Shown here: positions 35,353 to 59,158 of the stretch, piece by piece
Layout of the letters: every line of letters begins with the position of its first letter
Position numbering within the stretch: position 1 is the stretch's first letter
Assembly: GCF_000721495.1 (NCBI RefSeq)
Contig: NZ_JOHY01000010.1
Location: 101,526 to 165,525, forward strand
Source: Streptomyces sp. NRRL F-5123
Lineage (GTDB): Bacteria > Actinomycetota > Actinomycetes > Streptomycetales > Streptomycetaceae
Reading direction: 5' to 3'
Length of the DNA stretch: 64,000 nucleotides
Notes under the pieces: generated by a model
The model's database searches: none
Seen by the model: only the letters and a program-made list of their open reading frames with translations
Told to the model about the DNA's origin: nothing
Made by a program: the position numbers and the translations under genes

Positions 35353-36710
35353 TGGCCGCCGGACTCGCCCGCGCGTCGGTACGGCACCGCCGCGGCACCT
35401 TCCTCGCCGCCTTCCTCGCGGTCTTCCTGGGCGCGGCGATCCTGATGTCCTTCGCCGCCCTGCTGGACACCGCGGGCGGCCCGCACGTCACCGGGACGGA
35501 CCGGAACACGCTCACGATCATGGCCTCGGTCGTCGGCGGCTGGGGCGTGCTCGTGGTCGCCTCCGCGGTGGCCACGACCCTCGCGGTGGCGGCCCGCCAA
35601 CGGGCGGGCGAGCTGGCCCTGCTGCGCTCGCTGGGCGCCACACCCGCGCAGACCGTACGGCTGGTGGTCGGCGAGACGGCCCTGGTGGGGCTGGCCGGGG
35701 TGCTGCTGGCGCTGCCGGTCGGCTACGGCGGCGGCTGGACGCTGCTGCACCTGCTCCAGGACACCGGCCAGGTCGGCGACGCGGTGGGCTTCCGGTTCGG
35801 CGCGTCGGCGCTCGCCGTCGGGGCGGGCGGCAGCCTGCTGGCGGCGCTCGCGGCGTCGTTCGGCACGGCGCGGCGGGCGGCCCGCCGCAGGGCCGTGGAG
35901 GCGCACCGGCAGGCGGCCGCGGGCGGCCGCCGCACCAGCCGCTTCCGGCTGGCCGCGGGCGCGCTGCTGGTGGTGGCCGGGGCGAGCTGCGCGGTGGTCA
36001 CGGCGACCGCCCTGGACGCCTCGAAGATCGAGTCGCAGTCGGTCGCGGGCGAGGCCGCGGTGCTGTCCGCGCTGGGCTTCGCGCTGCTCGCGCCCGTACT
36101 GCTGCGCGCGGTGACCGCGGCCCTGGCCCCGCTGCTGGGCGCGTTCGGGGCGCCGGGCAGGCTCGGCGTGCTGGCGGTGCGGCAGCGCGTCCAGCGGGCG
36201 GCGACCGCGGTGATGCCGATCGTGCTGTGCACGGCGATCTCCACGGGGACGCTGGCCATGCAGTCGGTGTGGAATGCGGCGCACCCGCACCTGTCCGCGG
36301 ACGACAAGGGCACGGCGACGCTCAACTACGTGGTCGTCGGCATGCTCGCGGTCTTCGCCGCGGTGATGCTGGTCAACCTGGTGGTCGCCGAAACGGCCGC
36401 CCGGCAGGGCGAGTTCGCCCAGCTGCGGCTGGCCGGTGCGACGCAGCCGCAGTTGCTGCGGCAGGTCGCCGCCGAGACGGCGCTGACGCTGGTGACGGGG
36501 CTGCTGTTCGGCACGGCCGCGGCCGCGGCGTCCGCGGTGCCGTACAGCCTGGCCGTGTCGGGTGACGTCCTGCCGGGCTCGGCGGTCGGCATCCACACGG
36601 CGGTGGTCGCCGGGGTGGCGGTGCTCGCACTGGGCGCCGCCCTCACCGCCGCCCGCCGCGCGGGCCGGGCCCCCGCGACGGTGGCCCTGCGGACGGCGGT
36701 GGCGGCGTGA
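35352..36710 (+). CDS. FtsX-like ABC permease
   Basis: A 452-residue membrane protein with two FtsX/MacB-like halves. Hydrophobic blocks lie near residues 18-45, 55-85, 100-130 and 150-175, then again at 195-225, 235-265, 320-350 and 385-445. The ATG at 35352 overlaps the ATPase stop and has GGAGG nearby. Such permeases, with their ATPase, export or mechanically transduce signals for lipids, peptides or antibiotics. It precedes a two-component system, a layout often linked to response to cell-envelope stress or antimicrobial peptides in Gram-positive bacteria. Confidence 0.9.
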   Translation: MAAGLARASVRHRRGTFLAAFLAVFLGAAILMSFAALLDTAGGPHVTGTDRNTLTIMASVVGGWGVLVVASAVATTLAVAARQRAGELALLRSLGATPAQTVRLVVGETALVGLAGVLLALPVGYGGGWTLLHLLQDTGQVGDAVGFRFGASALAVGAGGSLLAALAASFGTARRAARRRAVEAHRQAAAGGRRTSRFRLAAGALLVVAGASCAVVTATALDASKIESQSVAGEAAVLSALGFALLAPVLLRAVTAALAPLLGAFGAPGRLGVLAVRQRVQRAATAVMPIVLCTAISTGTLAMQSVWNAAHPHLSADDKGTATLNYVVVGMLAVFAAVMLVNLVVAETAARQGEFAQLRLAGATQPQLLRQVAAETALTLVTGLLFGTAAAAASAVPYSLAVSGDVLPGSAVGIHTAVVAGVAVLALGAALTAARRAGRAPATVALRTAVAA

Positions 36711-36789
36711 CGGCGGGGGGCCGCGGGGCGGGGCAGGCCGCGACGGGTCCCGTACGGCGCACCGCGGGCGTACGCACGGAGGTGTCCGC

Positions 36790-37878
36790 GTGAGCGCGGC
36801 ATTCCCTCTCTCCCGACCGGGGCGGCGGCTGCGCCGGCCCGGTTGGGGCGTTCTCCTGGTGTGGCAGGCCGTCGCCTCGGTGGTCGTCGGGGTGGTCGGC
36901 ACCCTGGTGTGGGCGCAGCTGAGCCCGATGTACTTCTGGCCGCGGTGGGTGTGGTTCGGGCTCGGCGTCAACCTGGCGCTGCAGTACGGGCTGCGCTGGG
37001 CGCTGCGCAAGCCGCGCGGGCGGCGGCGGGCGTTCGCGCTCCAACTCGCCCTGAGCGCGGTGTGGGTGGGCATCGACGTCGTGTCGTGGGCCCTGTCCGG
37101 CGGGGGCTTCTTCTGGCCGGTCTTCAGCACGCCTGTGGTGGCCGTCGCACTCGTGGTGCACGCGTGGTGGCTGCAGCGGCTGCCGCCGGCCCGCGAGCAG
37201 GAGCTGACCGAGCGGGTGGCTGCGCTGCACCGTACGCGCAGCGGCGTACTCGACGTCCAGGCCGCGGAGTTGAAACGGATCGAGCGGGATCTGCACGACG
37301 GGGCGCAGGCCCGCATGGTGTCGCTGGCGATGAACCTCGGGCTCGCGAGCGAGCTGCTGCGCCGCGACCCGGACGCGGTCGCCGCGCTGCTCGCGGAGGC
37401 GCGGGAGACGACGCTGACCGCGCTGGAGGAGCTGCGTACGGTCATGGAGGGCATCCAGCCGCCCGTGCTGGCCGACCGCGGGCTGGTCGGCGCCGTGCAG
37501 GCGGTCGCGCTGGACCTGGCGCTGCCGGTGGCGGTCGAGGCGGACGTGCCGGGCCGGCCGGAGGCACCGGTGGAGTCGGCGGTGTACTTCGCGACGACGG
37601 AGTGCCTGGCCAACGTCGTCAAGCACGCGGGTGCGACGCGTGCGTGGGTGGGCCTCGTACACCGCGCCGGTACGCTGACGGTCGTCGTCGGCGACGACGG
37701 CCGCGGCGGCGCGGCCGTGGGTGCCGGAAGCGGGCTGAGCGGGGTGGCGCGCCGGCTGGAGGTCTTCGACGGCACGCTCGCTGTGGACAGCCCGCCCGGG
37801 GGCCCGACCCGGGTCACGATGGAGGTACCGTGCGCGTTGTCATCGCCGAAGACCTCGCCCTCCTCCGGGACGGCCTGA
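36790..37878 (+). CDS. Sensor histidine kinase (NarL-type, HisKA_3)
   Basis: A 362-residue kinase with four membrane helices in the first 125 residues and little extracellular sequence, which suggests sensing in the membrane. The DHp motif is RIERDLHDGAQARM with phospho-acceptor His 169. The ATPase domain has ECLANVVKHAGA (N box) and GDDGRGG (G1 box). The GTG start at 36790 follows GGAGG. The 3' end overlaps the response-regulator gene by 49 bases. It should phosphorylate that regulator and probably controls the ABC exporter upstream. Confidence 0.92.
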   Translation: MSAAFPLSRPGRRLRRPGWGVLLVWQAVASVVVGVVGTLVWAQLSPMYFWPRWVWFGLGVNLALQYGLRWALRKPRGRRRAFALQLALSAVWVGIDVVSWALSGGGFFWPVFSTPVVAVALVVHAWWLQRLPPAREQELTERVAALHRTRSGVLDVQAAELKRIERDLHDGAQARMVSLAMNLGLASELLRRDPDAVAALLAEARETTLTALEELRTVMEGIQPPVLADRGLVGAVQAVALDLALPVAVEADVPGRPEAPVESAVYFATTECLANVVKHAGATRAWVGLVHRAGTLTVVVGDDGRGGAAVGAGSGLSGVARRLEVFDGTLAVDSPPGGPTRVTMEVPCALSSPKTSPSSGTA

Positions 37879-38489
37879 CCCGCCTGCTGGAGGCGCACGA
37901 CTTCGAGGTGGTGGCCGCGGTCGGCGACCCGGAGGCGCTGTCGCAGGCGCTGGCCCGCGCGGAGGTGGACGTCGCGGTCGTGGACGTCCGGATGCCGCCG
38001 ACGTACAGCAACGAGGGGCTGGTCGCGGCCCTCGCCGCGCGCGAACGCCGCCCGGGGCTCCCGGTGGTGGTGCTCAGCCAGTACGTCGAGCAGCTCTACG
38101 CACGGGAGTTGCTCAGCTCGGGCGAGGGCGCGATCGGCTACCTGCTCAAGGACCGGGTGGGCAACGTCCCGGACTTCGTCGAGGCGGTACGGCAGGTGGC
38201 CAGGGGCGCGACGGTGCTGGACCCGAAGGTCGTCTCGGCGATGGTCTCCCGGCTGGAGGCGACGGGGCCCATGTCCCGGCTCACCCCGCGCGAGCGCGAG
38301 GTGCTGTCGCTGATGGCGCAGGGCCGTTCCAACGCGGGCGTCGCCGCGGCCCTGGTCGTCACGGAGAACGCCGTGAGCAAGCACATCAACAGCATCTTCG
38401 CGAAGCTGGACCTGCCGACCGCCTCCGACGACAACCGCCGGGTGCTCGCGGTCCTCGAATACCTGCGGACCGAGGGCGGGCTCAGCTGA
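37830..38489 (+). CDS. Response regulator, NarL/LuxR family
   Basis: A 219-residue regulator. The receiver domain has the acidic pair ED (7-8), phospho-acceptor D52 in VVDVRMP and switch Lys 107 in LLKDR. The LuxR-type helix-turn-helix is at the C-terminus (LTPREREVLSLMAQGRSN, then VSKHINSIFAKL). The GTG start at 37830 follows GGAGG directly and lies inside the kinase gene by 49 bases, so translation is coupled. Likely targets are the ABC exporter genes; no operator is evident. It converges with the next gene, overlapping by eight bases. Confidence 0.93.
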   Translation: MRVVIAEDLALLRDGLTRLLEAHDFEVVAAVGDPEALSQALARAEVDVAVVDVRMPPTYSNEGLVAALAARERRPGLPVVVLSQYVEQLYARELLSSGEGAIGYLLKDRVGNVPDFVEAVRQVARGATVLDPKVVSAMVSRLEATGPMSRLTPREREVLSLMAQGRSNAGVAAALVVTENAVSKHINSIFAKLDLPTASDDNRRVLAVLEYLRTEGGLS

Positions 38490-39528
38490 CGCCGGCCAAC
38501 TCCCCCCGCATCTCCCACGCTTCGAGCGGGAAGGCCAGCTCCTTGGCCTCGCCCAGCAGCCCGACCACCCGCGCCTGCTCCTCGAAGGCGGCGGCGCCCG
38601 GGCCCCCGGAGGCGAAGTCGGCGTAGGCGCGCAGCACGAACTCCGTCAGCGCGTCGTCGCGGAAGACCGCGCGCGGCTCGGGCGGTACGTCCCGTACGAG
38701 CAGGCGCAGTTGGGCGTAGTGGTCGGAGGCCTCGGCGGGGTAGTGGCCGATCGCGGTGCCCTGGTCGAAGCGCAGCGTGATCCGGCGTTCGCGCACGGGC
38801 GAGGTGAGGTCGGAGCGGATGACGCCGCGGACTCCGCCGTGGTGCGCGAGGCGCAGGGTGGCGCCGCCGAGCCGGGGCAGCCGCCGCCCGTTGACGTCCA
38901 GGTCGGTGCAGATCGCGCCCGCCACGTCGGCGTCCCCGGCAAGCCGCAGCAGGACGCCCATCGCGTGCGGGATCTCGACGTCGAAGGCGGTCGGGTGCCC
39001 GGAGCCGGCGAGCGAGCGCCGGAAGCGCGGCTTGCTCTGGACGACGGAGATCTGCCGCAGCGCGCCCAGCGCGGACCGCTCCCGGACGAGCACGGTCAGC
39101 CGGTCGGTGAGCGTGCTGGCCAACCAGGGTGCGACGACGGCGACTTGCACGTCCGGACCGCGCAGCAACTCCAGCAGCCGCGCGAGGTCGCGCGGCCCGG
39201 AGGCGAGCGGCATCTCCACCAGCAGCCTGCGGAAGCCGAGTTCGAGCAGCTCCTCGATCAGCTCGACCCGCGCGACCGGCGGCGTGCAGACGTGCACGAC
39301 CGTACGCCCGGGGTCCAGCACGCGCCGGGCCTGCGCGAGCGAGGCCACCGTGTGCACGCCCTCCGCCGTGTGGCGGGCGCGGGCCGCGGCGTCCCGGTCG
39401 AAGGCGGCCACGGGGCCGGGCGCGAACCAACGCGGCTGCCGCTCCCGGGCCTTGGCCAGGACCGGCAGATGGAGGCCCGCCCCCGCCCGGCCCAGGCCGA
39501 CGACCATCGTGTGCAGCATCTCCGGCAT
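38482..39528 (-). CDS. Gfo/Idh/MocA family oxidoreductase
   Basis: A 348-residue protein with an N-terminal Rossmann fold (TMVVGLGRAGAGLHLPVL), a VHVCTPP motif and RRLLVEMPLA, matching the Gfo/Idh/MocA group of NAD(P)-dependent sugar or cyclitol dehydrogenases. The substrate is unknown. The ATG at 39528 is preferred, with GGAAGG upstream. A promoter candidate (TTGACT-N18-CAGGCT) lies at 39656-39627. It sits next to the cyclodipeptide cluster, on the same strand as the oxidase pair but 318 bp from it, so membership in the cluster is uncertain. Confidence 0.82.
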   Translation of the reverse strand: MPEMLHTMVVGLGRAGAGLHLPVLAKARERQPRWFAPGPVAAFDRDAAARARHTAEGVHTVASLAQARRVLDPGRTVVHVCTPPVARVELIEELLELGFRRLLVEMPLASGPRDLARLLELLRGPDVQVAVVAPWLASTLTDRLTVLVRERSALGALRQISVVQSKPRFRRSLAGSGHPTAFDVEIPHAMGVLLRLAGDADVAGAICTDLDVNGRRLPRLGGATLRLAHHGGVRGVIRSDLTSPVRERRITLRFDQGTAIGHYPAEASDHYAQLRLLVRDVPPEPRAVFRDDALTEFVLRAYADFASGGPGAAAFEEQARVVGLLGEAKELAFPLEAWEMRGELAGVS

Positions 39529-39626
39529 GTCCGGCAACAACCTTCCGTAGCGTTCCGCCCTCACGGGGGCGGTGTTCCGTCGAACCAGCGGTGCCCGGTC
39601 GCAGGAGATCCGGGACAACGCGGGCC

Positions 39627-39656
39627 AGCCTGCGCGCCCGAACCGGACGAAGTCAA
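39627..39656 (-). promoter_or_regulatory. Candidate promoter upstream of the Gfo/Idh/MocA gene
   Basis: On the minus strand, TTGACT (39656-39651) and CAGGCT (39632-39627) are 18 bases apart. This would give a leader of about 90 bases. The rest of the 39529-39846 gap holds no recognised gene. Weak evidence, based on consensus only. Confidence 0.35.
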
Positions 39657-39846
39657 CGAAACGCGCCGGTCGCGCCCTTTTCACAGGAAACAACCCAAGA
39701 GGCTTGCCGCGTACCGGTGTTCGCCGCCCCCGCGGACGTGGGCCGGGGCGATGCGCCGCGGACCTGCCCGGCCGACCCCGAGGGCCGCGGATTCTGCACC
39801 CTCTTTCCGTCCTGGCCCCCGACCCCCCGCCGCCGTGCGGCCCGGC

Positions 39847-40182
39847 TCACGGGCGCGGGAGCAGGTCCACGTCCCGTCCCCGGTCGCACAGCACCTCCGC
39901 GAGGCGGTCGCACGCCGAGTCCAGCAGCGTGTTGATGTCCCCGCAGCCGCCTATCGGCCCGGTCATGAACGCCTCCAGCTCGGTGCGCAGCCCGGTGACG
40001 GCCGGGTCCTGCCCGCCCAGCCCCTCGACAAGGGCCAGCGTGCGCCGGGCGGCGTCCAGGCACCGCGCCTGGCCGTACACGGCCGGCTCGTCCGCCAGTC
40101 CGCGCCCGCTGCTGAGCAGGAAGGCCGCCAGCAGCAGCAGTTCCTCCCGCATACGGCCGCTGTCACTGCTCCCATGTGTCAT
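39847..40182 (-). CDS. Small AlbB-like (DUF6092-type) subunit of a cyclic dipeptide oxidase
   Basis: A 111-residue acidic, Cys-containing soluble protein beginning MTHGSSDSG, with no signal peptide. Size, gene order and its 20-base overlap with the end of the nitroreductase-like gene match AlbB of the albonoursin pathway. There, AlbB is needed with AlbA to form the cyclic dipeptide oxidase that introduces double bonds into diketopiperazines. Membership in DUF6092 is from memory and uncertain. The ATG at 40182 has GAGG eight bases upstream; a GTG/ATG slightly upstream is possible. It is the terminal gene of the leftward unit in the cyclodipeptide-terpene cluster. Confidence 0.65.
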   Translation of the reverse strand: MTHGSSDSGRMREELLLLAAFLLSSGRGLADEPAVYGQARCLDAARRTLALVEGLGGQDPAVTGLRTELEAFMTGPIGGCGDINTLLDSACDRLAEVLCDRGRDVDLLPRP

Positions 40183-40804
40183 GTCTGAGCACCTCGTTCC
40201 GGTCACGTCGGTCGGTCGGGCGCAGCGGCCCGGCGGGGTGGCCGACCGGCACCAGCAGCACGGGGTCGAGGTGTGCGGGGAGCCGGAGGACCGTCCGCAC
40301 CGGCCCCTCGCGGAAGCCGCCGACGGGGCAGCCGCCGAGCCCGAGGGCGTGGGCTGCCAGCAGCAGGTTCTCCACGGCCATGGCCACGCACAGCAGCCCC
40401 ATGTCCCAGCCGCCTTCCCCGGGCCCGCGTTCGTCGACCGGCCGGGACCGGTCGAAACAGGCGGCGACGACGAGCGGCGGCGTGCCGATGATCCCGGGGG
40501 CGAACGCGCCGAGCAGGCGCAGCGTCCGCCGCTCGCGCACGGCGACGAAGGCCCACGCCTGCTTGTTGGAGGCCGTGGGCGCCGCGAGCATCGCGCTCAC
40601 GAGCATCTCCAGGACCTCGTCGTCGACCTGCCGGCCGGTGTACTGCCTGACGACACTTCGGCTCCGCAGTACGCGCAGCACCGCGTCCGCCGAGCCCGCC
40701 GGACCCGCCGGACCTGCCGGACCCGCGTCCACCGCGTCCACGAGCGCGCGGCCCGCACGCTCCTCGCGCACCCGGAGTGACGCCCCAAGGGAGATATCAG
40801 CCAC
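40163..40804 (-). CDS. Nitroreductase-family flavoprotein, AlbA-like cyclic dipeptide oxidase subunit
   Basis: A 213-residue FMN-dependent nitroreductase-fold protein: RSRSVVRQYTGRQVDDEVL and APTASNKQAWAFVAV near the N-terminus, and GGCPVGGFREG near the C-terminus. In the albonoursin cluster, AlbA has this fold and, with AlbB, dehydrogenates the alpha-beta bonds of cyclo-dipeptides. Here the 3' end overlaps the small partner gene by 20 bases, as in that system. The GTG start at 40804 begins the conserved part. The gene is divergent from the methyltransferase, sharing a 63-bp promoter region. An ordinary nitroreductase is the alternative; the neighbouring synthase makes the oxidase role more likely. 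Confidence 0.75.
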   Translation of the reverse strand: MADISLGASLRVREERAGRALVDAVDAGPAGPAGPAGSADAVLRVLRSRSVVRQYTGRQVDDEVLEMLVSAMLAAPTASNKQAWAFVAVRERRTLRLLGAFAPGIIGTPPLVVAACFDRSRPVDERGPGEGGWDMGLLCVAMAVENLLLAAHALGLGGCPVGGFREGPVRTVLRLPAHLDPVLLVPVGHPAGPLRPTDRRDRNEVLRHDTWEQ

Positions 40805-40833
40805 TTCACTAACTGTACGTGATGAGATAGAGC
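40805..40833 (+). promoter_or_regulatory. Candidate promoter for the methyltransferase-cyclase-CDPS-prenyltransferase operon
   Basis: TTCACT (40805-40810) and TAGAGC (40828-40833) are 17 bases apart on the plus strand, with GGGAG before the methyltransferase ATG at 40868. The same 63-bp segment must hold the promoter of the divergent oxidase pair, so both arms may be co-regulated. A short TCAC-N9-GTGA inverted repeat overlaps the box. Weak consensus. Confidence 0.4.
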
Positions 40834-40867
40834 AAATACGCTCAAGGCAGACAGGGAGTCTTTCCGG

Positions 40868-41752
40868 ATGCAGCAGCAGACCACGGCGGCCCGTGCCCCC
40901 GGCGCCCCCGCCGTCCTCCCGCCTCCCGGACAGGGCGGCGAGGGGGACGGGGACGGCATCGGCGGCCTCTACGACAAGGTGTCGCACATCCTGTCCGGCC
41001 CCTACGGAGGGAATCTGCACATCGGCCTGTGGGCCGAGCCCCGCGAGGACGACACGCTCCCCCGGGCCGCCGACCGGATGACCGACCTGGTCGCCGACCA
41101 CCTGATGCTCTCGCGCGGGCAGCACCTGCTGGACGTCGGCTCGGGCACCGGCGCACCGGCCCTGCGCATCGCGCGCCGGCACGGTGTCGAGGTCACCGGA
41201 GTGTCCGTCAGCGCCGTGGAGACGGACCGGGCCACCGCGCTGGCCCGCGCCGAGGGGCTCGCCGAGCGCGTCCGGTTCGAGCGCGCCGACGCCCTGGCGC
41301 TGCCGTACGGCGCCGGATCCTTCGACGCGGCCTGCGCGGTGGAGTCGATGAGCCATATCCGCGACCGCGCCGGTGCGCTGGCGCAGATCCGCCGGGTCCT
41401 GCGTCCGGGCGGGCGCCTGGTGGTCGCCGACGGAATGCTGCTGCCCCCGCAGGGCCCGCGCCCGCGGGAGGCACGGGCGCTCGACGCCGGCCCGGCGATG
41501 CACCTGCCGCCCACGCTGGAGGGATGGCGTACGGAGCTGCGGGAGAGCGGGCTGACCCCGCTGGAAGCCGTCGACCTCAGCGACCACTGGCGTCACTCGG
41601 CGGCCCAGATGCTCCGGCTGATGGCCGAGGCGCGCGGGGAGTTCGAACGGGCCATCGGCGCCGAGGAGTTCGGTGCGGCCCTCGCGGGGCTGGAGCAGTT
41701 CTGCGGCCATCCGGATCTGGGTTACGTCCTGCTCGTCGCCGCGCGGAACTGA
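40868..41752 (+). CDS. SAM-dependent small-molecule methyltransferase (cyclodipeptide cluster)
   Basis: A 294-residue class I methyltransferase. After a Pro/Gly-rich start of about 30 residues comes YDKVSHILSGPYGGNLHIGLW, a segment shared with secondary-metabolite methyltransferases. SAM-binding motif I is LLDVGSGTGAPALRIA, and further motifs are FDAACAVESMSHI and LRPGGRLVVAD. It would place a methyl group on the diketopiperazine or its terpenoid adduct; N- or O-methylation cannot be told. It opens the rightward operon, followed by the cyclase (35 bp), CDPS and prenyltransferase. Confidence 0.88.
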   Translation: MQQQTTAARAPGAPAVLPPPGQGGEGDGDGIGGLYDKVSHILSGPYGGNLHIGLWAEPREDDTLPRAADRMTDLVADHLMLSRGQHLLDVGSGTGAPALRIARRHGVEVTGVSVSAVETDRATALARAEGLAERVRFERADALALPYGAGSFDAACAVESMSHIRDRAGALAQIRRVLRPGGRLVVADGMLLPPQGPRPREARALDAGPAMHLPPTLEGWRTELRESGLTPLEAVDLSDHWRHSAAQMLRLMAEARGEFERAIGAEEFGAALAGLEQFCGHPDLGYVLLVAARN

Positions 41753-41787
41753 GCCGGGGTCCCCATGTCACAGCATCGGGAGTCCAC

Positions 41788-42504
41788 ATGTCACAGCAGA
41801 TGACACCGGTCACGGCCATGATCGCGACGGCGAACATGCTGTGGGCGGTCGTCTACGTGCTGATCATCCGGGCCGGGCTGCGCGACCGCACCTACGGCAT
41901 GCCGATCGTGGCACTGTGGCTGAACCTCTCCTGGGAGGGGAACTTCTCCTTCGTGCGCCCGCAGCCCGGAGCGCTGTGGGTGACGAACGTGGTCTGGTTC
42001 CTGCTGGACTGCGGCATCCTGTGGACGGCGCTGCGCTACGGCCACCGGGAGTTCCCCTGGCTGCCGCGGTGGGGGTACGTCCTCGGCCTCGCGCTGACCG
42101 GCGCGTGCTGCTGGACCGGCATGGAGGCGGCGCTGCGCCAGCTCGAACGCGCCGGCGGCATCGAGACGGCGGGCACGTACACCGGTTTCGGCGCGCAGTT
42201 GGTGATGTCGTGCCTGTTCCCGGCCATGCTGATGGCCCGGCGGTCCACGTCCGGCCAGTCGACCGCCATCGGGGTGTGCCGGCTGGTGGCCGACGCCGGA
42301 GCGGTGGCCGGCGGGGTGGTCTGGCTGCGGAACGGCACCGTGGTCGGCGGTCCGGTCCTGCCGGTCGTCTTCACCCTCGCGATCGTCCTGGACCTCGCCT
42401 ACGTGGCCGGCGTGTCCGCCGTGCGGCGGGCCGAGCGGCGCGTTCCGGCCGCCGTCGCCCCGGATCCGGCCGCAGGCGCCCCCGTCGTGCTGGGAGGCGG
42501 GTGA
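41788..42504 (+). CDS. Membrane terpene cyclase, Pyr4/PaxB-like (DmtA-type)
   Basis: A 238-residue integral membrane protein with seven predicted helices. Size and helix pattern match the fungal Pyr4/PaxB cyclases and the bacterial DmtA proteins of drimentine biosynthesis. The acidic residues essential in Pyr4 (E63, D218) have plausible counterparts here: E50 in ALWLNLSWEGNF and D202 in AIVLDLAYV. It would protonate and cyclise the farnesyl chain of a prenylated cyclodipeptide to a drimane-like bicycle. An 11-bp repeat (ATGTCACAGCA) occurs at 41765 and at the start codon, 41788; only the second is in frame. Start, length and context all support the call; no catalytic test is possible here. 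Confidence 0.82.
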   Translation: MSQQMTPVTAMIATANMLWAVVYVLIIRAGLRDRTYGMPIVALWLNLSWEGNFSFVRPQPGALWVTNVVWFLLDCGILWTALRYGHREFPWLPRWGYVLGLALTGACCWTGMEAALRQLERAGGIETAGTYTGFGAQLVMSCLFPAMLMARRSTSGQSTAIGVCRLVADAGAVAGGVVWLRNGTVVGGPVLPVVFTLAIVLDLAYVAGVSAVRRAERRVPAAVAPDPAAGAPVVLGGG

Positions 42505-42648
42505 GCTGCTGCGAGGCGTCCCGCACGGCAGTCGGGTGAGGCCTGTCACCCACGTGCCGGACCGCCGCACACCGGTAGTGGCAGGCGGGGAAAGTCCTGG
42601 TATATCCCTGTAGTCGTCGCGTCAGCCGCCCGTATCAGGAAGCGCTCT

Positions 42649-43440
42649 ATGACCAGCAGGACCGAAACCAGCGTGCCGATCCCGGAGTCGTCGGAGCCGC
42701 CTGAGCCCTCGTTCGGCGTCGAGCCCCTCACCGGCAACTGCCGACGGGTCTTCGACCGGGGCGAGCACGCCCTGATCGGAGTGAGCCCCGGCAACAGCTA
42801 CTTCAGCGAGGAGCTGCTGACCGGTCTCCTCCGCTGGACCGCCCTGCGCTTCGACCGGATCGACGTCGTGATCCCCGACAGCGCGCGGCGGGAGACGTTC
42901 CTGGCCCTCGGCTACGCTCCCGAGCGCGCCCGGAAGAAGTCGTGGGAGGAGGCGTCCCGCATCCGCAACCGGGTGCTGCGCGCGTGGGAGGCGGCCGGGG
43001 TGACCAGCCGGCCCTTCGCCGCCCACCGGCTGTCCCGCCTCACCGAGCACCCCGCCTACCAGGCGCTGCTGCACCGCACCGAGCAGGAGTGGGCGAAGGG
43101 CTCGGTCCTGCGGGAGTCCTACCTGGCGGCCGCCCGGTCGGTGCTGCACGGGCTGTTGAAAGGTGCCGCGCCCACCCAGGAGCAAGCCGAGCTGGCGGCC
43201 CGTCACCTGATCGCGGAGACCCCGCTGCTGATCGGTGCCCCGGACGTCTTCGGCGTCGCGAGTTCGGCCGCTTTTTACCACAAGCGCATCGACTTCATCG
43301 ACGCCGTCTACGCCGGGCACACTTCCCTGGACGCCCATCCGGACCAGGGGTTCGTCATCGTCCAACGGGAGCCTGCCGAGGCCCCGGCGCCCGCGCCCGC
43401 TTCCGTCCAGGCTGTGGCCGGCCCCCGGCTGCTTCCGTGA
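42649..43440 (+). CDS. Cyclodipeptide synthase (CDPS), NYH subfamily
   Basis: A 263-residue CDPS that joins two aminoacyl-tRNAs into a cyclic dipeptide. The region RGEHALIGVSPGNSYFS matches AlbC closely, giving catalytic Ser 46 (AlbC S37) and Asn 49 (N40). FYHKRIDF gives Tyr 210 and His 211 (AlbC Y202, H203), defining the NYH group. The AlbC Y178/E182 pair aligns to His 186/Glu 190, so the usually conserved Tyr is replaced. The ATG at 42649 follows AGGAAG. The product may contain Trp, since drimentine-type prenyltransferases act on Trp diketopiperazines, but specificity cannot be read here. The next gene overlaps by four bases. Confidence 0.93.
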   Translation: MTSRTETSVPIPESSEPPEPSFGVEPLTGNCRRVFDRGEHALIGVSPGNSYFSEELLTGLLRWTALRFDRIDVVIPDSARRETFLALGYAPERARKKSWEEASRIRNRVLRAWEAAGVTSRPFAAHRLSRLTEHPAYQALLHRTEQEWAKGSVLRESYLAAARSVLHGLLKGAAPTQEQAELAARHLIAETPLLIGAPDVFGVASSAAFYHKRIDFIDAVYAGHTSLDAHPDQGFVIVQREPAEAPAPAPASVQAVAGPRLLP

Positions 43441-44327
43441 GCGCGCGGGAACTGGACGCGGCCGGCATCCACGACCCCCTCCTCCGCGACGCCTACGGCC
43501 ACTGCGAAGCGCGCCTGCTCCACCACAACCACGCGGCACACGCGGGCAGCCGCGCCCTGATGGCACCGGCGAAACGCCCGTACTGGGACGCGATCATGGC
43601 CTTCTGCGGCCACGCGGACGACCTGGCGGACGCCCGGGACAGCTCCCCGGAGCAACGGCGCCACGACTTCGACGCGTTCGTCGCCGACTTCGACCGGACC
43701 CTGGCAGCCGATCCGGCTCCGGCGCCCGCGGCGCAGCCGGCGTCCCTGGTCTGCACGGCGTTCGCGGACTTCGTACGCACCTGGCAGATCCCCGGCCACA
43801 GCCTCCGCCAGGCCCAACGGGCCGTACGGGAGGACATGGCCGTACGGGAGTACCGCACGACCGCCGAACTGGACCGCTACATCGCGGGCGTGAGCGGCCA
43901 GCCCGCCCTCTGGCTCGCCGACCTCTTCGGCACCGCCGACACCGCCGACCGTACGGCGGCCCGCGACGCGGCGGTCTCCCTGGGCGTGAGCCTGCAGATC
44001 CTGGACAACCTCACGGACGTCCCCGAGGACCTGCACCTCGGCAAGCTCTACCTCCCGCTGGACGACCTGTCGCGCTGCGGGCTGACCCGCGCGGACGTCG
44101 AGGAGGCGGTCGCCGGCAGGCACAGCACCGCCCCGCTGCGCCGCCTCGTCGCCCTGCACACCCAACGCGCCCGCGACCACCTCTCCCAGGGTGAGGCGTG
44201 GCCCGGCCTGGCCCACCCCGCGAGCCGCGACTTCGTACAGGCCATGGTGTCCCAGACCCGCCAGGCGACCGAGCTCCTCGAATCGGCGGACTACGACCTG
44301 TTCGTCCTGTCGGCCACCGCCGCCTGA
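43437..44327 (+). CDS. Squalene/phytoene-synthase-like prenyltransferase (DmtC-type)
   Basis: A 296-residue protein of the trans-isoprenyl diphosphate synthase, head-to-head group. The two Asp-rich motifs are DDLADARD (61-68) and DNLTDVPED (190-198), with the typical GKLYLPLDDL after the second. It is shorter than a true phytoene synthase, and no carotenoid genes are near. In drimentine clusters this kind of enzyme farnesylates the indole C3 of a Trp-containing cyclodipeptide, and that role is inferred here. The GTG start at 43437 overlaps the CDPS stop (GTGA), so the two are coupled. It ends the rightward operon. Confidence 0.88.
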   Translation: MSARELDAAGIHDPLLRDAYGHCEARLLHHNHAAHAGSRALMAPAKRPYWDAIMAFCGHADDLADARDSSPEQRRHDFDAFVADFDRTLAADPAPAPAAQPASLVCTAFADFVRTWQIPGHSLRQAQRAVREDMAVREYRTTAELDRYIAGVSGQPALWLADLFGTADTADRTAARDAAVSLGVSLQILDNLTDVPEDLHLGKLYLPLDDLSRCGLTRADVEEAVAGRHSTAPLRRLVALHTQRARDHLSQGEAWPGLAHPASRDFVQAMVSQTRQATELLESADYDLFVLSATAA

Positions 44328-44358
44328 CGCCCGGGTGGGCCCCGACCCGATCACAGCA

Positions 44359-45147
44359 CTAGCTCCGCGCCGCCCGCCAGGTGAGGGCGCGGAACGGGAG
44401 GTCGAAGGCGTCGTCGGGGCCGATGCCGAGCTGCGCGCAGAGCGTGTCCCGGGCTCGGGCCAGCAGCGCCCGGCGCTCCTGCTCGGGGAGCAGGATGACG
44501 CGGCTGTACGTGCCGAGCAGCGCCGCCGCCTCGGCCGGGGTGGTGCGGCGGGTGGTGGTGAAGGCGGCGTGCTCCAGCGCGCCGAAGGGCGAGTCCGGGG
44601 TCTCCAGCGCCGTGCGCAGCAGCTCCCCGCGACGGGCCCAGCGCTCCGTGGGGGCCGGCTGGCCGCCGGTGCCGCCGAGCCCGCTCGACCAGCGGTCCAC
44701 CCAGTCGACGCCGCGGTCGATGCCGTTCCAGACGATGCCCAACCGCCCGCCGCTCCGCAGCACGCGAGCGATCTCGGGTACGGCCCGGCCGGTGTCGAAC
44801 CAGTGCCACGCCGAGGAGACGATCACCGCGTCCACGGCCGCGTCCGGCAACGGGATCGACTCCGCGCTGCCGCGTCGTACGTCGGCGTCCGGAAGCCGCT
44901 CGGCGAGCACCGCCCGCATCCGGTCGTCCGGCTCGACCGCGTACACCTCCGGCACGCGGGGCGCCAGCAGCGCCGTGAGGGTGCCGGCACCGGCCGCCAG
45001 GTCGAGAACGGCGGACGCGCCCTCGGGCAGCATCCAGCCGACCGCCTCTTCCTGCGGAGCCGGGCGCAGCCGCCCGTAGTCCTCGGCGACCCGCCCGAAG
45101 GCGGCGGCGCGCTCCGGAGGGAAAGGTGAGGGCGAGGAAGTGGCCAT
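44359..45147 (-). CDS. Class I SAM-dependent methyltransferase
   Basis: A 262-residue methyltransferase of the Methyltransf_11 type. SAM motif I is LDLAAGAGTLTALLA, followed by VYAVEPDDRM, then AWHWFDTGRAVPEIARVLRSGG. It is the UbiE/SmtA-like group found widely in streptomycetes with unknown substrates. The ATG at 45147 has GGAGG about ten bases upstream. It converges with the prenyltransferase gene 31 bp away, so it is probably outside the cyclodipeptide operon, though its position leaves a role possible. Confidence 0.85.
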   Translation of the reverse strand: MATSSPSPFPPERAAAFGRVAEDYGRLRPAPQEEAVGWMLPEGASAVLDLAAGAGTLTALLAPRVPEVYAVEPDDRMRAVLAERLPDADVRRGSAESIPLPDAAVDAVIVSSAWHWFDTGRAVPEIARVLRSGGRLGIVWNGIDRGVDWVDRWSSGLGGTGGQPAPTERWARRGELLRTALETPDSPFGALEHAAFTTTRRTTPAEAAALLGTYSRVILLPEQERRALLARARDTLCAQLGIGPDDAFDLPFRALTWRAARS

Positions 45148-45297
45148 GGCTCGGGTGCCTCCGTCGGGTCGGACGTCCACCCGGCAGTAGATCACGCCCC
45201 CCGGTCACAGCCCCGCACCCGTCCGGGAACGTGACCCCGCCCCCGCCGCCGGGTCAGCGGCGGAGGCCGGCCCCGGGAGTGCACTCCACGGCGGCCC

Positions 45298-45915
45298 TCA
45301 CGCGCCCGCCACCGGCACGAGGATGCCGGCTTCGGGCGTCGGCCGTTCGGCCTCGTCCACGATGAGGGCCGCGACGGTGGCGCGCGAGGCGTGCGGCGGC
45401 AGGAAGGGCTTGGGGTACTGCGCCAGGGGTACGTTGCGGCGGGCCGCGCTGACGTCCCCGACCCACAGGTCGGGCGCGTGGAAGACGGTGGCGCCGCTCT
45501 CCAGGACGATCGCGTCGGCCGCGGCCTTCTCCGCCAGCTCCTTGCCGACGAACATCTTCATCACCGCCTGGTAGATGCCTCCTCCGGCGCCGGTCGACAG
45601 TCCCGAACCCAGCGCGCCGAGCCACAGGGTGCGGACGGGCAACGCCGCCAGGATCCGCGCGCCCGCCACCAGGGCGCCCGGGCCGTCGCCCTTGCTGATG
45701 CCGAGCGCGGACACGACGACGTCCACATCGCCCAGGTCCGGGAAGGACCGCGGCCCGGTCACGTCCGCCTCGCGGACCTCGACCCCGCCCCGTGCGGGCT
45801 GGACGTACTTCTGCGGGCTGCGGACGAGCGCGACTGCCTCGTGGCCCCGTTCGACCGCCTGGTCCACGACCAGGCGCCCGACCCGGCCGGTCGCGCCGAG
45901 AACTGCGATGCGCAT
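45298..45915 (-). CDS. NAD(P)H-binding SDR-like protein (NmrA/YwnB type)
   Basis: A 205-residue atypical short-chain dehydrogenase. The N-terminal Rossmann motif is AVLGATGRVGRLVVDQA, and the VSALGISKGDG segment is typical of the NAD(P)H-binding PF13460 group. The usual YxxxK catalytic pair is absent, as in this branch. It may act as a flavin reductase-like or redox-sensing protein. It is divergent from the TetR gene, and direct repeats between them are the probable operator. The ATG at 45915 is the first in-frame start at the fold. Confidence 0.85.
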   Translation of the reverse strand: MRIAVLGATGRVGRLVVDQAVERGHEAVALVRSPQKYVQPARGGVEVREADVTGPRSFPDLGDVDVVVSALGISKGDGPGALVAGARILAALPVRTLWLGALGSGLSTGAGGGIYQAVMKMFVGKELAEKAAADAIVLESGATVFHAPDLWVGDVSAARRNVPLAQYPKPFLPPHASRATVAALIVDEAERPTPEAGILVPVAGA

Positions 45916-45930
45916 GACGACTCCACTAAC

Positions 45931-45969
45931 TGAACAAGTGTTGGTGAACTTGAGTGAACACCTGTTGGT
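45931..45969. promoter_or_regulatory. TetR-type operator repeats between SDR and TetR genes
   Basis: TGAACAAGTGTTGGT (45931-45945) and TGAACACCTGTTGGT (45955-45969) are direct repeats 24 bp apart. Each contains a palindrome AACA-N2-TGTT. They lie 16 bp upstream of the SDR start and about 90 bp before the TetR gene, a standard place for a repressor to control both. Binding is inferred. Confidence 0.6.
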
Positions 45970-46055
45970 CAGAGGTGTCAAGCCGTACGGCCCGGGCGCC
46001 CGAGCGGCGCCGAAAGGTAAGGTGAACGCCCGTTGCCGACGAGGAGGAGCCGGGT

Positions 46056-46712
46056 ATGGCCGGGGAGCAGGCCCCGCGTCGCCGACGCAACCCCCGAGGT
46101 CAGGGGCAGACGCTCAAGGCCGAACTGGTCGAGGCCGCCGCCCGGCTGCTGGCCACCCTCGACCGACCGGAGACGTTGACCCTGCGGCAGGTCGCCCGGG
46201 AGGTCGGCGTCGCGCCCGCCAGCATCTACAGCCACTTCCCCGACCTCGGCGCCCTGATCCAGCACGTGCTGCGACTGCGGTTCGCCGAGCTGGCCCGGCT
46301 GATGGACGAGGCGGCGGCACGGACCGCCGACCCCCTGGACGACCTCGTCGCCCGCTGCGCCGCCTACGCGCGCTGGGGGGTCGAGCACCCCGGGGAGTAC
46401 CGCACGCTCTTCGGAGGCCGCATGCCGGCCGAACTCGTCCCCCTCCAGGCGTACGGCGCCGGCGAGGCCCTCCTGGGCTCCGTCATCACGTCACTGGCCG
46501 ACGTCCGGCAGCGCGGCGGTGAGCGGTCCGGCCCCGAGCGGCAATGGCAGAACGGGCTGCTCCTGTGGACCGCGCTGCACGGTCTCGTCGCCCTCTACAA
46601 CGACCACGGCGCCATCCCCTGGCCGCCGCTGGACACCCTCGTCGCCGACGTCCTCGCCCTCCACACGGGCGAGCCGGCCGAAGAGATCTCGGCGCGTCTC
46701 CCGGCGGGATGA
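46056..46712 (+). CDS. TetR/AcrR-family regulator
   Basis: A 218-residue regulator. The N-terminal DNA-binding region is RRNPRGQGQTLKAELVEAAARLL followed by LTLRQVAREVGVAPASIYSHFPDL. The C-terminal part resembles the TetR_C_13-type ligand domain (GVEHPGEYRTLFGG, LLLWTALHGLVALY). It is divergent from the SDR-like gene, with paired operators between, so it likely represses that gene. The inducer is unknown. The 267 bp after it (46713-46979) hold no gene that can be supported. Confidence 0.9.
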   Translation: MAGEQAPRRRRNPRGQGQTLKAELVEAAARLLATLDRPETLTLRQVAREVGVAPASIYSHFPDLGALIQHVLRLRFAELARLMDEAAARTADPLDDLVARCAAYARWGVEHPGEYRTLFGGRMPAELVPLQAYGAGEALLGSVITSLADVRQRGGERSGPERQWQNGLLLWTALHGLVALYNDHGAIPWPPLDTLVADVLALHTGEPAEEISARLPAG

Positions 46713-46979
46713 CCCCGGTGGGCCCGGGGCCCGCGGGACGCCCACCCGCAGGGCCCGGGCATCACCCTGAACCGCACCCTCCCCGCGGCCGAGACCGCCC
46801 GGACTTCACGGGGCCGCTCCTCCTCACCGTACGGCGGCCCTCCTGCCACAGCCTGCCGCCGCGTCCCGGGTGGCACGAACGGCTCAAACGGGTCACTCTC
46901 GTTCATGTACGGGGAGTGGGCCGTCCGAGCGACCGGCCGGCCCCGTTCGACGCCACCGCCGAACCCCATGGAGGTCGCC

Positions 46980-47339
46980 ATGTCCACGCTGGCCTGGGAA
47001 CAAGGAGGCGTGATCAACGCCAGCTACTCCGCCGGAGGCCTCGGCGCGCCGTACGGCGTGTATCCCACCGAGACCGTGCACATCCAGGTCGACAAGGTCC
47101 CCATCCCGCCCCCTCCTGACGGCTGGGCGGTGCACGTCCATGTGGGGCTCGCCCTCGTCAAGGCCGAGTCCGCAGAGATCGGGATCATGTCCGCCACCAA
47201 GGTGGGCCTCGGACCGGATGTGACCTTCGACCCCTGGGAAACAGCCGCCTACGGCCAGATCCTGGGATTCACCGTGGGCGCCGACGTGACGAACGGCGCC
47301 ATGCGGGGCTGGTGGTACTGGCAGCTGTGGCAGTGGTGA
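46980..47339 (+). CDS. Hypothetical protein (119 residues)
   Basis: The ATG at 46980 follows GGAGG exactly, so translation is likely. The protein is Gly/Val-rich with no membrane segment or signal, and it ends in an unusually Trp-rich tail (GWWYWQLWQW). No family is recognised. A longer start at 46905 exists but lacks a ribosome site. It is followed by a 100-bp gap containing a fragment of a PIN-domain gene. Possibly a small secreted-by-other-means or phage-like protein; no function can be given. Confidence 0.5.
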   Translation: MSTLAWEQGGVINASYSAGGLGAPYGVYPTETVHIQVDKVPIPPPPDGWAVHVHVGLALVKAESAEIGIMSATKVGLGPDVTFDPWETAAYGQILGFTVGADVTNGAMRGWWYWQLWQW

Positions 47340-54445: not shown

Positions 54446-56014
54446 CTAGCGCGCCACGCCGCCCGTTCCACTGCTTTGACCGGTGAGCGTCGCAGGCGTG
54501 TAGTCGAACCAGTCGAAGGCGACGCTGCCTTCGATGGCGTACATGCCGATCACACGGCCGGTGAAGCCGGTGCTGAGCTGGGTCGAAAGGTAACGCCCGT
54601 CGAGTTCCGCCAGCAGTGCCGTGTCGGTGCCGACGATCGAGAAGGCAAGCGTGTCCGGCCCGGCGGCTTCCGTGCCCAGCGGCCCCTGCTCCAGTTCGCC
54701 GGCGGAGGTGACGGAGGGCGGCAGCACGCCGGTCGTCCGGGTCTCGATGACCAGGGTGAGTGGTCCCGGCGGTACCGGGCGCCGGGCCACGGTCTGCCGC
54801 AGCGGGCCGATCCGGGCGACCACACTCGCCTCTCCGCCACTGACTTCGAGTTCGTAGTGGTGTGCCTCGTCCATGCGCACGCACAGTCCGCCGCGGCCCG
54901 TGCCCGGATCGATACGGACGGAGACCCGGCAGTCCAGGTGCTGCTGGCGGCGTCCGACGAAGGTGTACCCGGGGCGGTCGAGGCTCGGGCCGGCCGCACG
55001 GAGCGTCAGCCACCCACGCCTCTCGCCCAGTGACCACGACGTGTCAGGCAGGCTGCGAGGGGAGATCCAGCCTGGTGACAACGCTGCGGAGTCGAAGTCG
55101 TCCCGGGCGGGTTCGGGCGCCCACGGGTGCCATGCCGCGGGGGCCGGATGCTGTGCCTGGACCGGGCCGGCGACGGGCCAGCCGTCCTCCCACCGCACCG
55201 GCGCCAGGAACGTCTCCCGCCCCATGACATGGAATCGGGGGAAGGCTCCTCGGGGCCGGGTGCCGAGCAGGACCAGCCACCACGTGCCGTCGGCGGCCTG
55301 GACGAGATCGGCGTGTCCGGTGCTCTGGATCGGCAGATCGGTGCTGCGGTGGCTCAGGAACGGGTTCGAAGGGCACGGCTCGAACGGCCCGCGGGGGGAG
55401 CGGCTGCGCGCGATGGAGACGGCGTGCCCGTCGCCGGTACCGCCCTCGGAGACCAGCAGGTACCACCAGCCGTCGATGCGATGAAGATGCGGCGACTCCG
55501 GATACTGCCCACCGGATCCCGACCATGTCCGCCATGGGCCCTCCAGCACCGCCCCTGTCGACGGGTCGATGCGCGCCATACGGACGCCGGAGGTGCTGCA
55601 CCAGCACGCGCCGTCGTCGTCCCAGGCCAGGTCGGGGTCCACACCGGGCAAATCGACGTGGACGGGATCGGACCACGGACCCTCCGGCCGCTCGCTGGTG
55701 ACGATCAGATGCCCGGCGGGGACTCCGCCGGCACCTACCCGGGAAGTGATCACGTAGAACAGGCCGTCGTGATGCCGGATCGTCGGCGCGTAGATACCGC
55801 GGGAAGACGGTATGTCGTCCGTCAGGCCCAGTTGCCCGGGCCGGTCCAGGACGTTGCCGACCTGCCGCCAGTGCACCAGGTCGCGGCTGTGGAAGAGGGG
55901 GACTCCGGGGAAGTACTCGAAGCTCGAACTCACTGCGTAGTAATCATCGCCGACCCGGCACACGCTCGGGTCTGGGTAGAAGCCACTGATCACCGGGTTG
56001 TCGTACATCTGCAT
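54446..56014 (-). CDS. GH43 beta-xylosidase/alpha-arabinofuranosidase
   Basis: A 522-residue glycosidase with the five-bladed propeller of GH43. The catalytic acids are seen: base Asp in GFYPDPSVCR (D15), pKa-tuning Asp in LPGVDPDLAWDDDG, and acid Glu in YPESPHLHRIDG. Its C-terminal 200 residues match the XynB-type beta-sandwich domain. No signal peptide is present, so it should hydrolyse xylo- or arabino-oligosaccharides in the cell. It is the sole metabolic cargo of the tRNA island. It is unlike the GH39-type gene in the left locus, so the two serve related substrates without sharing an operon. Confidence 0.9.
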   Translation of the reverse strand: MQMYDNPVISGFYPDPSVCRVGDDYYAVSSSFEYFPGVPLFHSRDLVHWRQVGNVLDRPGQLGLTDDIPSSRGIYAPTIRHHDGLFYVITSRVGAGGVPAGHLIVTSERPEGPWSDPVHVDLPGVDPDLAWDDDGACWCSTSGVRMARIDPSTGAVLEGPWRTWSGSGGQYPESPHLHRIDGWWYLLVSEGGTGDGHAVSIARSRSPRGPFEPCPSNPFLSHRSTDLPIQSTGHADLVQAADGTWWLVLLGTRPRGAFPRFHVMGRETFLAPVRWEDGWPVAGPVQAQHPAPAAWHPWAPEPARDDFDSAALSPGWISPRSLPDTSWSLGERRGWLTLRAAGPSLDRPGYTFVGRRQQHLDCRVSVRIDPGTGRGGLCVRMDEAHHYELEVSGGEASVVARIGPLRQTVARRPVPPGPLTLVIETRTTGVLPPSVTSAGELEQGPLGTEAAGPDTLAFSIVGTDTALLAELDGRYLSTQLSTGFTGRVIGMYAIEGSVAFDWFDYTPATLTGQSSGTGGVAR

Positions 56015-57677: not shown

Positions 57678-59103
57678 GTCACGTCCGCTGGAGTGGTGTA
57701 TCGACGGCCACTCGGTGATCTTGTTTTGAGGCTATGCGCTGAGTTCGGTGGGTAGGGGCGTGTTGTCAGTTTCTGACTCGTTCGGGTGGTGGGCCTTGGC
57801 CAGGAGGTCGAGGCCCATGTAACGGCGGGCCTCTGTCCATTCGTCGTTCTGTTCGGCCAGGACGGCGCCGACCAGGCGGATCAGTGCGGTGCGGTCGGGG
57901 AAGATCCCGACGACGTCGGTGCGGCGGCGGATCTCCTTGTTCAGTCGCTCCTGCGGGTTGTTGGACCAGATCTGCCGCCAGATCTCGCGGGGGAAGGCGG
58001 TGAAGGCCAGCAGGTCGTGCTGGGCGGTATCAAGGTGGGCTGCGGCCTTGGGGAACTTCGCCTCCAGGGCGTTCAGCGCGTGCGTCATCTGGGCTTTCAC
58101 GGCGTCGGTGTCGGGTTGTTCGAAGACCGTCCGCAGCAGGGTGGCCACCCAGGGCTGGGCGGATTTCGGCACTTGCGAGAGCAGATTCCTGGCGTAGTGG
58201 GTGCGGCACCTCTGCCAGGACGCGCCGGGCAGGACGGCTCCGATCGCGTTGACCAGGCCGGTGTGGGCGTCGGAGACGACGAGCTGGACGCCGCTCAGGC
58301 CGCGGGCGGTCAGCGAGCGCAGGAACGCCAGCCAGCCGGCGCCGTCCTCGGCGGTGGCGACGTCGATGCCGAGGATCTCGCGGTGCCCGTCGGCGTTGAC
58401 ACCGACCGCGACCAGCGCGTGGACGTTGACGATCCGCCCTTCCTCGCGGACCTTCTGGGTCAGCGCGTCGACCCAGACGAACGCATACGGTCCGGCGTCC
58501 AGCGGCCGGTTGCGGAAAGCGGCGACCTGCTCGTCCAGGTGCTTGGCCATCGCGCTGACCTGCGACTTACTCAGCTGCGTCACGCCCAGGGACTGCGCGA
58601 ACTTCTCCACCCGGCGGGTCGAGACTCCGAGGAGGTAGGCGGTGGCGACCACCGAGATGAGGGCCTGCTCGGCCCGGCGGCGGCGTTCCAGCAGCCAGGC
58701 CGGGAAGTAGCTGCCGGTCCGCAGTTTGGGGATCGCGAGTTCGACGGTGCCGACGCGGGTGTCCCACTCGCGGGGGCGGTATCCGTTGCGGTGGTTGACG
58801 CGTTCGTCGCTGACCTGCCCATACCCCGCATTGCACATCGCGTCGGCCTCCGCCGACATCAACGCGTCGGTGAACGTCTTCACCATCGCGCGCAGCAGAT
58901 CCGGACTCGCCGACGCGAGGTTGTCCTCAGTGAGAGCGTGCAGGGGCAGACTGTCGGTTGCGGTCATCGTGCTGATCTCCTTCGAGGCTTAGACACTTCG
59001 AAGATCAGCCGGTGGCCGTTCATCTATGCGGGCACCAACCCGGACGCCGGGACAAACCCCCGGATCAGGTCAAACCCGTTTCACCACTTCCAAAGACGCA
59101 ACC
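57678..59103 (-). mobile_element. Intact IS256-family insertion sequence (1426 bp)
   Basis: The element holds one complete transposase gene. Its boundaries follow from the 9-bp direct repeat TCATCGTGG at 57669-57677 and 59104-59112. The ends form an imperfect inverted repeat of about 25 bp sharing CGTC, TTGGA/CTGGA and GTGGTG. The right target copy contains the tRNA-Thr 3' CCA. Size, repeat length and target duplication (8-9 bp) fit the IS256 family. Confidence 0.8.
57732..58967 (-). CDS. IS256-family transposase
   Basis: A 411-residue transposase of the mutator-like DDE family. The catalytic acids appear in FVWVDALTQKVREEG (first Asp), VVSDAHTGL (second Asp) and NNPQERLNKEIRRR (Glu). It has full length, an ATG start and no internal stop, so it should be active. 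It occupies nearly the whole IS element, with short flanks carrying the ends. It cuts and pastes or copies the element through a circular intermediate, as IS256-family elements do. Confidence 0.93.
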   Translation of the reverse strand: MTATDSLPLHALTEDNLASASPDLLRAMVKTFTDALMSAEADAMCNAGYGQVSDERVNHRNGYRPREWDTRVGTVELAIPKLRTGSYFPAWLLERRRRAEQALISVVATAYLLGVSTRRVEKFAQSLGVTQLSKSQVSAMAKHLDEQVAAFRNRPLDAGPYAFVWVDALTQKVREEGRIVNVHALVAVGVNADGHREILGIDVATAEDGAGWLAFLRSLTARGLSGVQLVVSDAHTGLVNAIGAVLPGASWQRCRTHYARNLLSQVPKSAQPWVATLLRTVFEQPDTDAVKAQMTHALNALEAKFPKAAAHLDTAQHDLLAFTAFPREIWRQIWSNNPQERLNKEIRRRTDVVGIFPDRTALIRLVGAVLAEQNDEWTEARRYMGLDLLAKAHHPNESETDNTPLPTELSA

Positions 59104-59112
59104 TCATCGTGG
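59104..59112. repeat. 9-bp target-site duplication, right copy (contains tRNA CCA)
   Basis: TCATCGTGG repeats 57669-57677. Its last three bases, TGG, are the CCA end of tRNA-Thr on the minus strand, so duplication kept the tRNA 3' end intact when the IS inserted. Confidence 0.75.
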
Positions 59113-59158
59113 AGCCGCCTTCGGGATTCGAACCCGAGACCTACGCATTACGAGTGCG
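59107..59158 (-). repeat. 52-bp attachment-site copy inside tRNA-Thr
   Basis: Identical to 54065-54116 over 52 bp. It spans from the anticodon stem to just past the CCA. It marks the proximal boundary of the island and the likely recombination core. Confidence 0.85.

Follow-up and report, generated by a model that had tools for sequence, protein, structure and literature searches.

Six open reading frames (ORFs) occupy positions 39,847–44,327 of the 64-kb stretch of DNA analysed here (64,000 nucleotides; the window) and are arranged as two divergent units. They encode a putative drimentine-type system consisting of a two-subunit cyclodipeptide oxidase (CDO) on one side and, on the other, a methyltransferase, a membrane terpene cyclase, a cyclodipeptide synthase (CDPS) and a phytoene-synthase-like prenyltransferase. 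The names given below by locus identity presuppose the identification discussed further on.

39847–40182, minus strand: albB-like gene, CDO small subunit (CDO-Ssp5123 subunit B by locus identity); PF19585 and AlbB structure matches
40163–40804, minus strand: albA-like gene, CDO flavin subunit; PF00881 and AlbA structure matches; start uncertain
40868–41752, plus strand: class I S-adenosylmethionine (SAM) methyltransferase; Methyltransf_11 (PF08241)
41788–42504, plus strand: Pyr4-like membrane terpene cyclase (DmtA2 by locus identity); PF25129 and DmtA1 functional residues
42649–43440, plus strand: CDPS of the NYH subfamily (DmtB2 / CDPS 75 by locus identity); TIGR04539 and pocket motifs
43437–44327, plus strand: phytoene-synthase-like prenyltransferase (DmtC2 by locus identity); SQS_PSY PF00494

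Pfam places the albB-like protein in DUF6092 (PF19585, 9.5e-24), the albA-like protein in the nitroreductases (PF00881, 5.4e-24), the methyltransferase in PF08241 (1.2e-20), the cyclase in Pyr4-TMTC (PF25129, 2e-27), the CDPS in PF16715 (2.1e-66) and the prenyltransferase in SQS_PSY (PF00494, 7.1e-38). An earlier note on this DNA had described six genes in two divergent units and assigned each to a family; all the ORFs are present and Pfam is concordant for six of six. The outer ends that it gave also stand, while its albB start does not, our judgement being that ATG 40182 is preferable to GTG 40206. In NCBIfam, the CDPS lies far over the cut-off of TIGR04539 (6e-69, 231.9 vs 45 bits), the four other proteins with a match stay below theirs, and the AlbB-like protein has no match. 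The G+C content at codon position 3 is 0.89–0.95 in the six ORFs, which contain no TTA codon. The albA start may be GTG 40804, 40771 or further in, and with GTG 40804 the gap between the divergent units is 63 base pairs (bp). With the preferred starts, the overlap between albA and albB measures 20 bp, which is typical of CDO gene pairs, whose overlap is usually 20–30 nt (PMC11760959). The CDPS and prenyltransferase genes overlap by 4 bp, and the cyclase starts at 41788 or 41800.

Residue-level comparisons indicate that the window most probably contains the dmt2 drimentine cluster of Streptomyces sp. NRRL F-5123, an identification to which we give a probability of about 0.96. The pocket of the window CDPS reads LGVPLLLA / ASVGKID, the motif given in the Trp/Pro-accommodating row of the pocket table in PMC5816076, and thus agrees at 15 of 15 positions with that published for CDPS 75 of NRRL F-5123. 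Among 27 other CDPSs (17 database homologues and 10 from fetched loci), the best, P0162 (74% identical), reaches 12 of 15 and the runner-up 10. We assigned this row to CDPS 75 because of the row order, the product and the residues reported for DmtB2, i.e., Leu at 186, a hydrophobic residue at 200 (Ala or Leu in DmtB1-3) and Asp at 207 (PMC6173783), which are found in the assigned row and not in the two other Trp rows with Pro. In addition, V74, L194 and I214, named for DmtB2 in the same paper, are V74, L194 and I214 in the window CDPS (3/3). The published accession for CDPS 75 is NZ_JOHY01000010.1 (PMC5816076); the window belongs to contig 10 in its own genome (G000), an agreement that is circumstantial because such contig numbers do not always mirror the accession. 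Finally, two pieces of the NRRL F-5123 protein WP_031517753.1 have been published (PMC10924467), and both its C-tail (57/57) and its signal peptide (27/27) are found exactly in one frame of G000, once SR and EL at the ends of the pieces are omitted as presumed construct residues. In the 34 other genomes of the genus, the C-tail reaches 75% at best. Compared with dmt2 as described in PMC6173783, PMC7487605 and PMC5816076, the window has the same kinds of genes, CDPS pocket residues, numbering and contig number, and no difference was found in these features.

Some points weigh against this identification. The rows of the motif table are unlabelled in the text, that of CDPS 75 being assigned by order, product and DmtB2 residues, and one of the 15 pocket positions depends on the alignment (G168 by MAFFT, H167 by phmmer). 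Furthermore, the identity is read from residues and short protein pieces that a near-identical sister strain could share, so that the locus could be a separate, closely similar drimentine-type cluster from a different strain within the species or genus. We consider this very improbable, since the 15 pocket residues, the three residues named by number, the number of the contig and the two exact protein pieces all agree with dmt2, and since the cyclase finds no match better than 1.3e-19 in the 34 other genomes of the genus.

The gene combination itself is not new. According to PMC6173783 (2018), homologues of both CDO subunits adjoin dmt2 and dmt3, the regions next to them contain methyltransferase gene(s) and dmt1 is without an oxidase; PMC7487605 (2020) restates this neighbourhood, and there the CDOs of dmt2 and dmt3 were both tested. 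The earlier note knew of no cluster with this exact combination, a view overtaken by these two papers, which very probably deal with the same locus; the six-gene system is thus very probably one already published. The dmt3 cluster of S. aidingensis CGMCC 4.5739, compared by description only, shares with the window a cyclase, a CDPS and a prenyltransferase as well as the two oxidase subunits and methyltransferase gene(s); it differs in its CDPS, which makes cyclo(Trp-Leu). In dmt1 (S. youssoufiensis OUC6819) and in two loci fetched from other genomes, L111 (G300) and L143 (G517), cyclase, CDPS and prenyltransferase follow the order seen in the window; however, neither oxidase nor methyltransferase stands alongside, and the CDPS has Gln at AlbC position 203 where the window has His. 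L111 and L143 are 52–54% identical to the window in the CDPS, about 36% in the cyclase and about 44–46% in the prenyltransferase. The Gln replacing the NYH His in these two loci also occurs in the database proteins P0164–P0166 and seems to mark a small CDPS clade. The nocardioazine system noz2 (NozR, NozPT, NozMT), like the window, combines a phytoene-synthase-like prenyltransferase with a methyltransferase acting on Trp diketopiperazines; it differs in its C5 prenyl group and racemase, its available description names neither cyclase nor oxidase, and NozMT was compared by description only.

The albA/albB pair is supported as an AlbA/AlbB-type CDO. The A subunit matches PDB 9exv_A (7.2e-72) and albonoursin synthase 8uc3_A (8.9e-55), and the B subunit matches the AlbB chains 9exv_C (3.9e-26) and 8uc3_D (3.2e-20). 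We take 9exv to be NdasCDO because it has the residue numbers published for that enzyme (R28, R29, R32, E117, C121). When judged against the AlbAB structure paper (PMC11055893), Cys115 of AlbA, which links the flavin mononucleotide (FMN), corresponds to Cys139 of the window A subunit, and R24, R28, S54, N55, R175 and C135-P-V-G138 of AlbA are retained. In the B subunit, E33, P34, Y37, R41 and M78 of AlbB are E32, P33, Y36, R40 and M73. One residue speaks against the assignment, as Ser139 of AlbA is Gly163 in the window A subunit; with this exception, the whole CDO signature (FMN Cys and FMN-site residues in A, E-P-Y-R plus Met in B, overlapping genes) is found. Because the AlbA/AlbB structures match and the residues agree, a plain nitroreductase is very unlikely. 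The window pair thus resembles both AlbAB and NdasCDO in its two subunits, the FMN-linking Cys and the overlap of the genes. The albonoursin and NdasCDO clusters are not known to contain the terpene genes. As for activity, CDO-Ssp5123 has been reported to turn cyclo(Trp-Pro) (cWP) into its dehydroproline form, cW-delta-P, and CDO-Said5739 to make cW-delta-L (PMC7487605).

The window cyclase keeps all nine of the conserved functional residues of DmtA1 that were mapped (W29, Y33, N56, W59, E60, D94, E133, D214, Y217; mutationally tested in PMC6173783) as W19, Y23, N46, W49, E50, D74, E113, D202 and Y205, the mapping having been made through L111, not through DmtA1 itself. The dispensable C58 of DmtA1 is Ser in the window. 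L111 was taken as dmt1-like because of the Gln at AlbC position 203 of its CDPS, the protein lengths (CDPS and prenyltransferase ORFs of 233 and 311 amino acids (aa), the same as published DmtB1 and DmtC1) and its cyclase, in which the pattern W29/Y33/N56/C58/W59/E60 recurs with the numbering shifted by 12; the locus differs from dmt1 in having Leu where Val205 is published for DmtB1. The window and L111 prenyltransferases share 135 of 296 aligned residues. The window has the drimentine-type trio, in which an NYH Trp-X CDPS stands beside a membrane terpene cyclase and a prenyltransferase of the phytoene-synthase-like kind. The earlier note had proposed an AlbA/AlbB-type pair and a Pyr4/DmtA-like cyclase, and stated that the lack of either kinship would leave an ordinary CDPS locus; both kinships are borne out, by the two solved CDO filaments and by the nine cyclase residues, respectively.

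The DNA from 36,600 to 47,000 was searched against 35 same-genus genomes (own included), with 8 candidate places scored per genome. Among the matches listed, those of the left flank reach about 38,510 and extend inside the next gene to 39,344 in G028 and to 39,681 in G016, those of the right flank begin at 44,365, and none from the 34 other genomes falls within 39,682–44,364. The search with the cyclase protein, in which all candidates were scored, gave no match in 33 of these 34 genomes and one distant match in the remaining one. Together, the DNA gap and the absence of the cyclase suggest that the six genes form an accessory block, to which the adjacent methyltransferase gene (44,359–45,195) would not belong. 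Conceivably, the oxidase and the core trio could be unrelated neighbours working on different molecules, as they are divergently transcribed and as the two dmt1-like loci, L111 and L143, are without oxidase, like the published dmt1. This is improbable, however, given that the oxidase of the locus converts the product of the locus's CDPS in E. coli (PMC7487605), that dmt2 and dmt3 both have an oxidase (PMC6173783), and that the flanks match same-genus genomes while 39,682–44,364 does not, among the matches listed, which fits a block coming and going together.

Two neighbouring genes were considered as members of the cluster and rejected: the class I methyltransferase at 44,359–45,195 (minus strand), with 86% identical DNA in G002, and the Gfo/Idh/MocA oxidoreductase at 38,482–39,693, with a 77% DNA match in G016, both being genomes without a cyclase match. 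The methyltransferase thus probably lies outside the cluster, even though several putative methyltransferases have been counted near CDPS 75 (PMC5816076). Just left of the cluster, a histidine kinase and a LuxR-type response regulator (36562–38489, plus strand) have 79–83% DNA matches in several same-genus genomes; this pair is a possible regulator of the cluster.

CDPS 75 makes 99.5% cWP, plus cWF and cWG (PMC5816076), and DmtB2 is reported to make cWP and little cWL (PMC6173783). Expression of dmtB2C2 yields the farnesylated pre-drimentines C and A, and that of dmtA2B2C2 yields drimentines C and A (PMC6173783). In the proposed pathway, the CDPS joins Trp and Pro from aminoacyl-tRNAs into cyclo(Trp-Pro) with traces of others, as published for dmt2, and the oxidase would come in early, with the free cyclodipeptide as its substrate. 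Next, the prenyltransferase would put a farnesyl group on indole C-3, closing the pyrroloindoline, and the membrane cyclase would protonate the distal double bond to give a drimane bicycle. The methyltransferase would work after prenylation, its likeliest site being the indoline nitrogen N-4. In the resulting order, CDPS, oxidase, prenyltransferase, cyclase and methyltransferase, the places of the oxidase and of the methyltransferase are those that we infer. Since the aminal carbon is numbered C-3, N-4 would be the indoline nitrogen and N-15 that of the second amino acid; the methyl group was placed on N-4 because, in the Trp-Pro product, N-15 is the proline nitrogen and ring closure uses up N-2, leaving N-4 as the sole free NH. 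The predicted end product is N4-methyl didehydro-drimentine C (C32H41N3O2, [M+H]+ 500.328), with masses calculated from 488.3277, the value published for pre-drimentine C (PMC6173783); the corresponding values are 488.328 for drimentine C and 486.312 for its didehydro form. As a whole, this order and end product have in our view about an even chance of being right. The product type foreseen by the earlier note, a dehydrogenated, methylated and terpenylated diketopiperazine, is supported.

The nearest solved relatives of the methyltransferase are MitM (1.2e-49), PDB 3bus (4e-45), 6uv6 (1.2e-43) and 5gm1 (7.9e-38). It is presumably the published N-methyltransferase of the locus, DmtMT2-1, reportedly characterised in iScience in 2020 as N-methylating pre-drimentines; a literature search for this name gave no match. 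Some points tell against the product proposed above. A literature search, weak in that it covered mostly titles and abstract openings and left subscription papers outside, found no report of a six-gene product or of a didehydro methylated drimentine. A review table puts the drimentine methyltransferases under N-methylation at the diketopiperazine ring, which sits uneasily with the indoline nitrogen. The enzyme might instead methylate the cyclodipeptide at a ring nitrogen prior to prenylation, as the minor Trp-Leu products retain a ring NH, or else the terpene chain, as 5gm1, presumably TleD, which methylates a prenyl chain, is among its nearest solved relatives. Such a site seems unlikely, though it deserves consideration: MitM, 3bus and 6uv6 outscore 5gm1, the nitrogen of Pro in the major CDPS product is not methylatable, methylation of the Trp amide would, on chemical grounds, block ring closure, and NozMT, from a comparable pathway, methylated only the prenylated one among the substrates tested.

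The distribution of the system was surveyed in family, sister-genus and order samples, with 6–8 candidate places scored per genome, so that counts are lower bounds and absences weak. Cyclase matches at E ≤ 1e-25 occur in at least 8 of 394 family genomes (own included), and matches to the CDPS family in at least 147 of 394. Closer CDPSs (E ≤ 1e-38) were found in at least 15 of 392 genomes of a large sister genus and at least 11 of 293 of the order sample (own included); in three other genera they numbered 0/3 (genus of G058), 1/70 and 0/2 (genus of G040). A peptide-pattern scan of genome contigs gave 70 loci, but the window cyclase itself misfits the pattern (Trp where A/C/G is asked), so that its nearest relatives are under-sampled; among the 70, only L002 had cyclase, prenyltransferase and a CDPS match (at the contig start, 25% over 137 aa). 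A cyclase profile and single-protein searches were run on 24 non-own stretches (L002, L111, L113–L119, L143–L157), several of which are truncated at contig ends. The full trio of cyclase, CDPS and prenyltransferase is present in L111 and L143 and, with the weak CDPS match, in L002; the oxidase appears only in L156, a 6-kb contig without cyclase or prenyltransferase match. None of the 24 stretches is from a second genome with all parts, and dmt3 is known to us from the literature only. No label of S. aidingensis or NRRL F-5123 appears in the cyclase and CDPS search matches shown, most rows of which are without a name. Five of the stretches (L144, L145, L146, L148, L150) carry a CDPS, a phytoene-synthase-like prenyltransferase and a related methyltransferase, that of L146 being the closest to the window's (44.5% over 283 aa), and have no cyclase or oxidase match in the fetched stretch; they look like loci for acyclic terpenylated or prenylated diketopiperazines.

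Elsewhere in the window, the genes between 1460 and 9223 (GH39, solute-binding protein, LacI regulator, acetyl xylan esterase) look like a group for xylan use, and a GH43 gene lies at 54446–56014. A Mutator-family transposase (57732–58967, minus strand) adjoins a tRNA-Thr gene (59110–59186), and this region is perhaps an insertion site.

The CDPS, oxidase and terpene steps of dmt2 have each been tested in the literature. Our tentative proposal, which we hold at somewhat below even odds, is that the intact six-gene dmt2 pathway may make an undescribed N4-methylated didehydro drimentine C, and that published work would have seen only part-way products.

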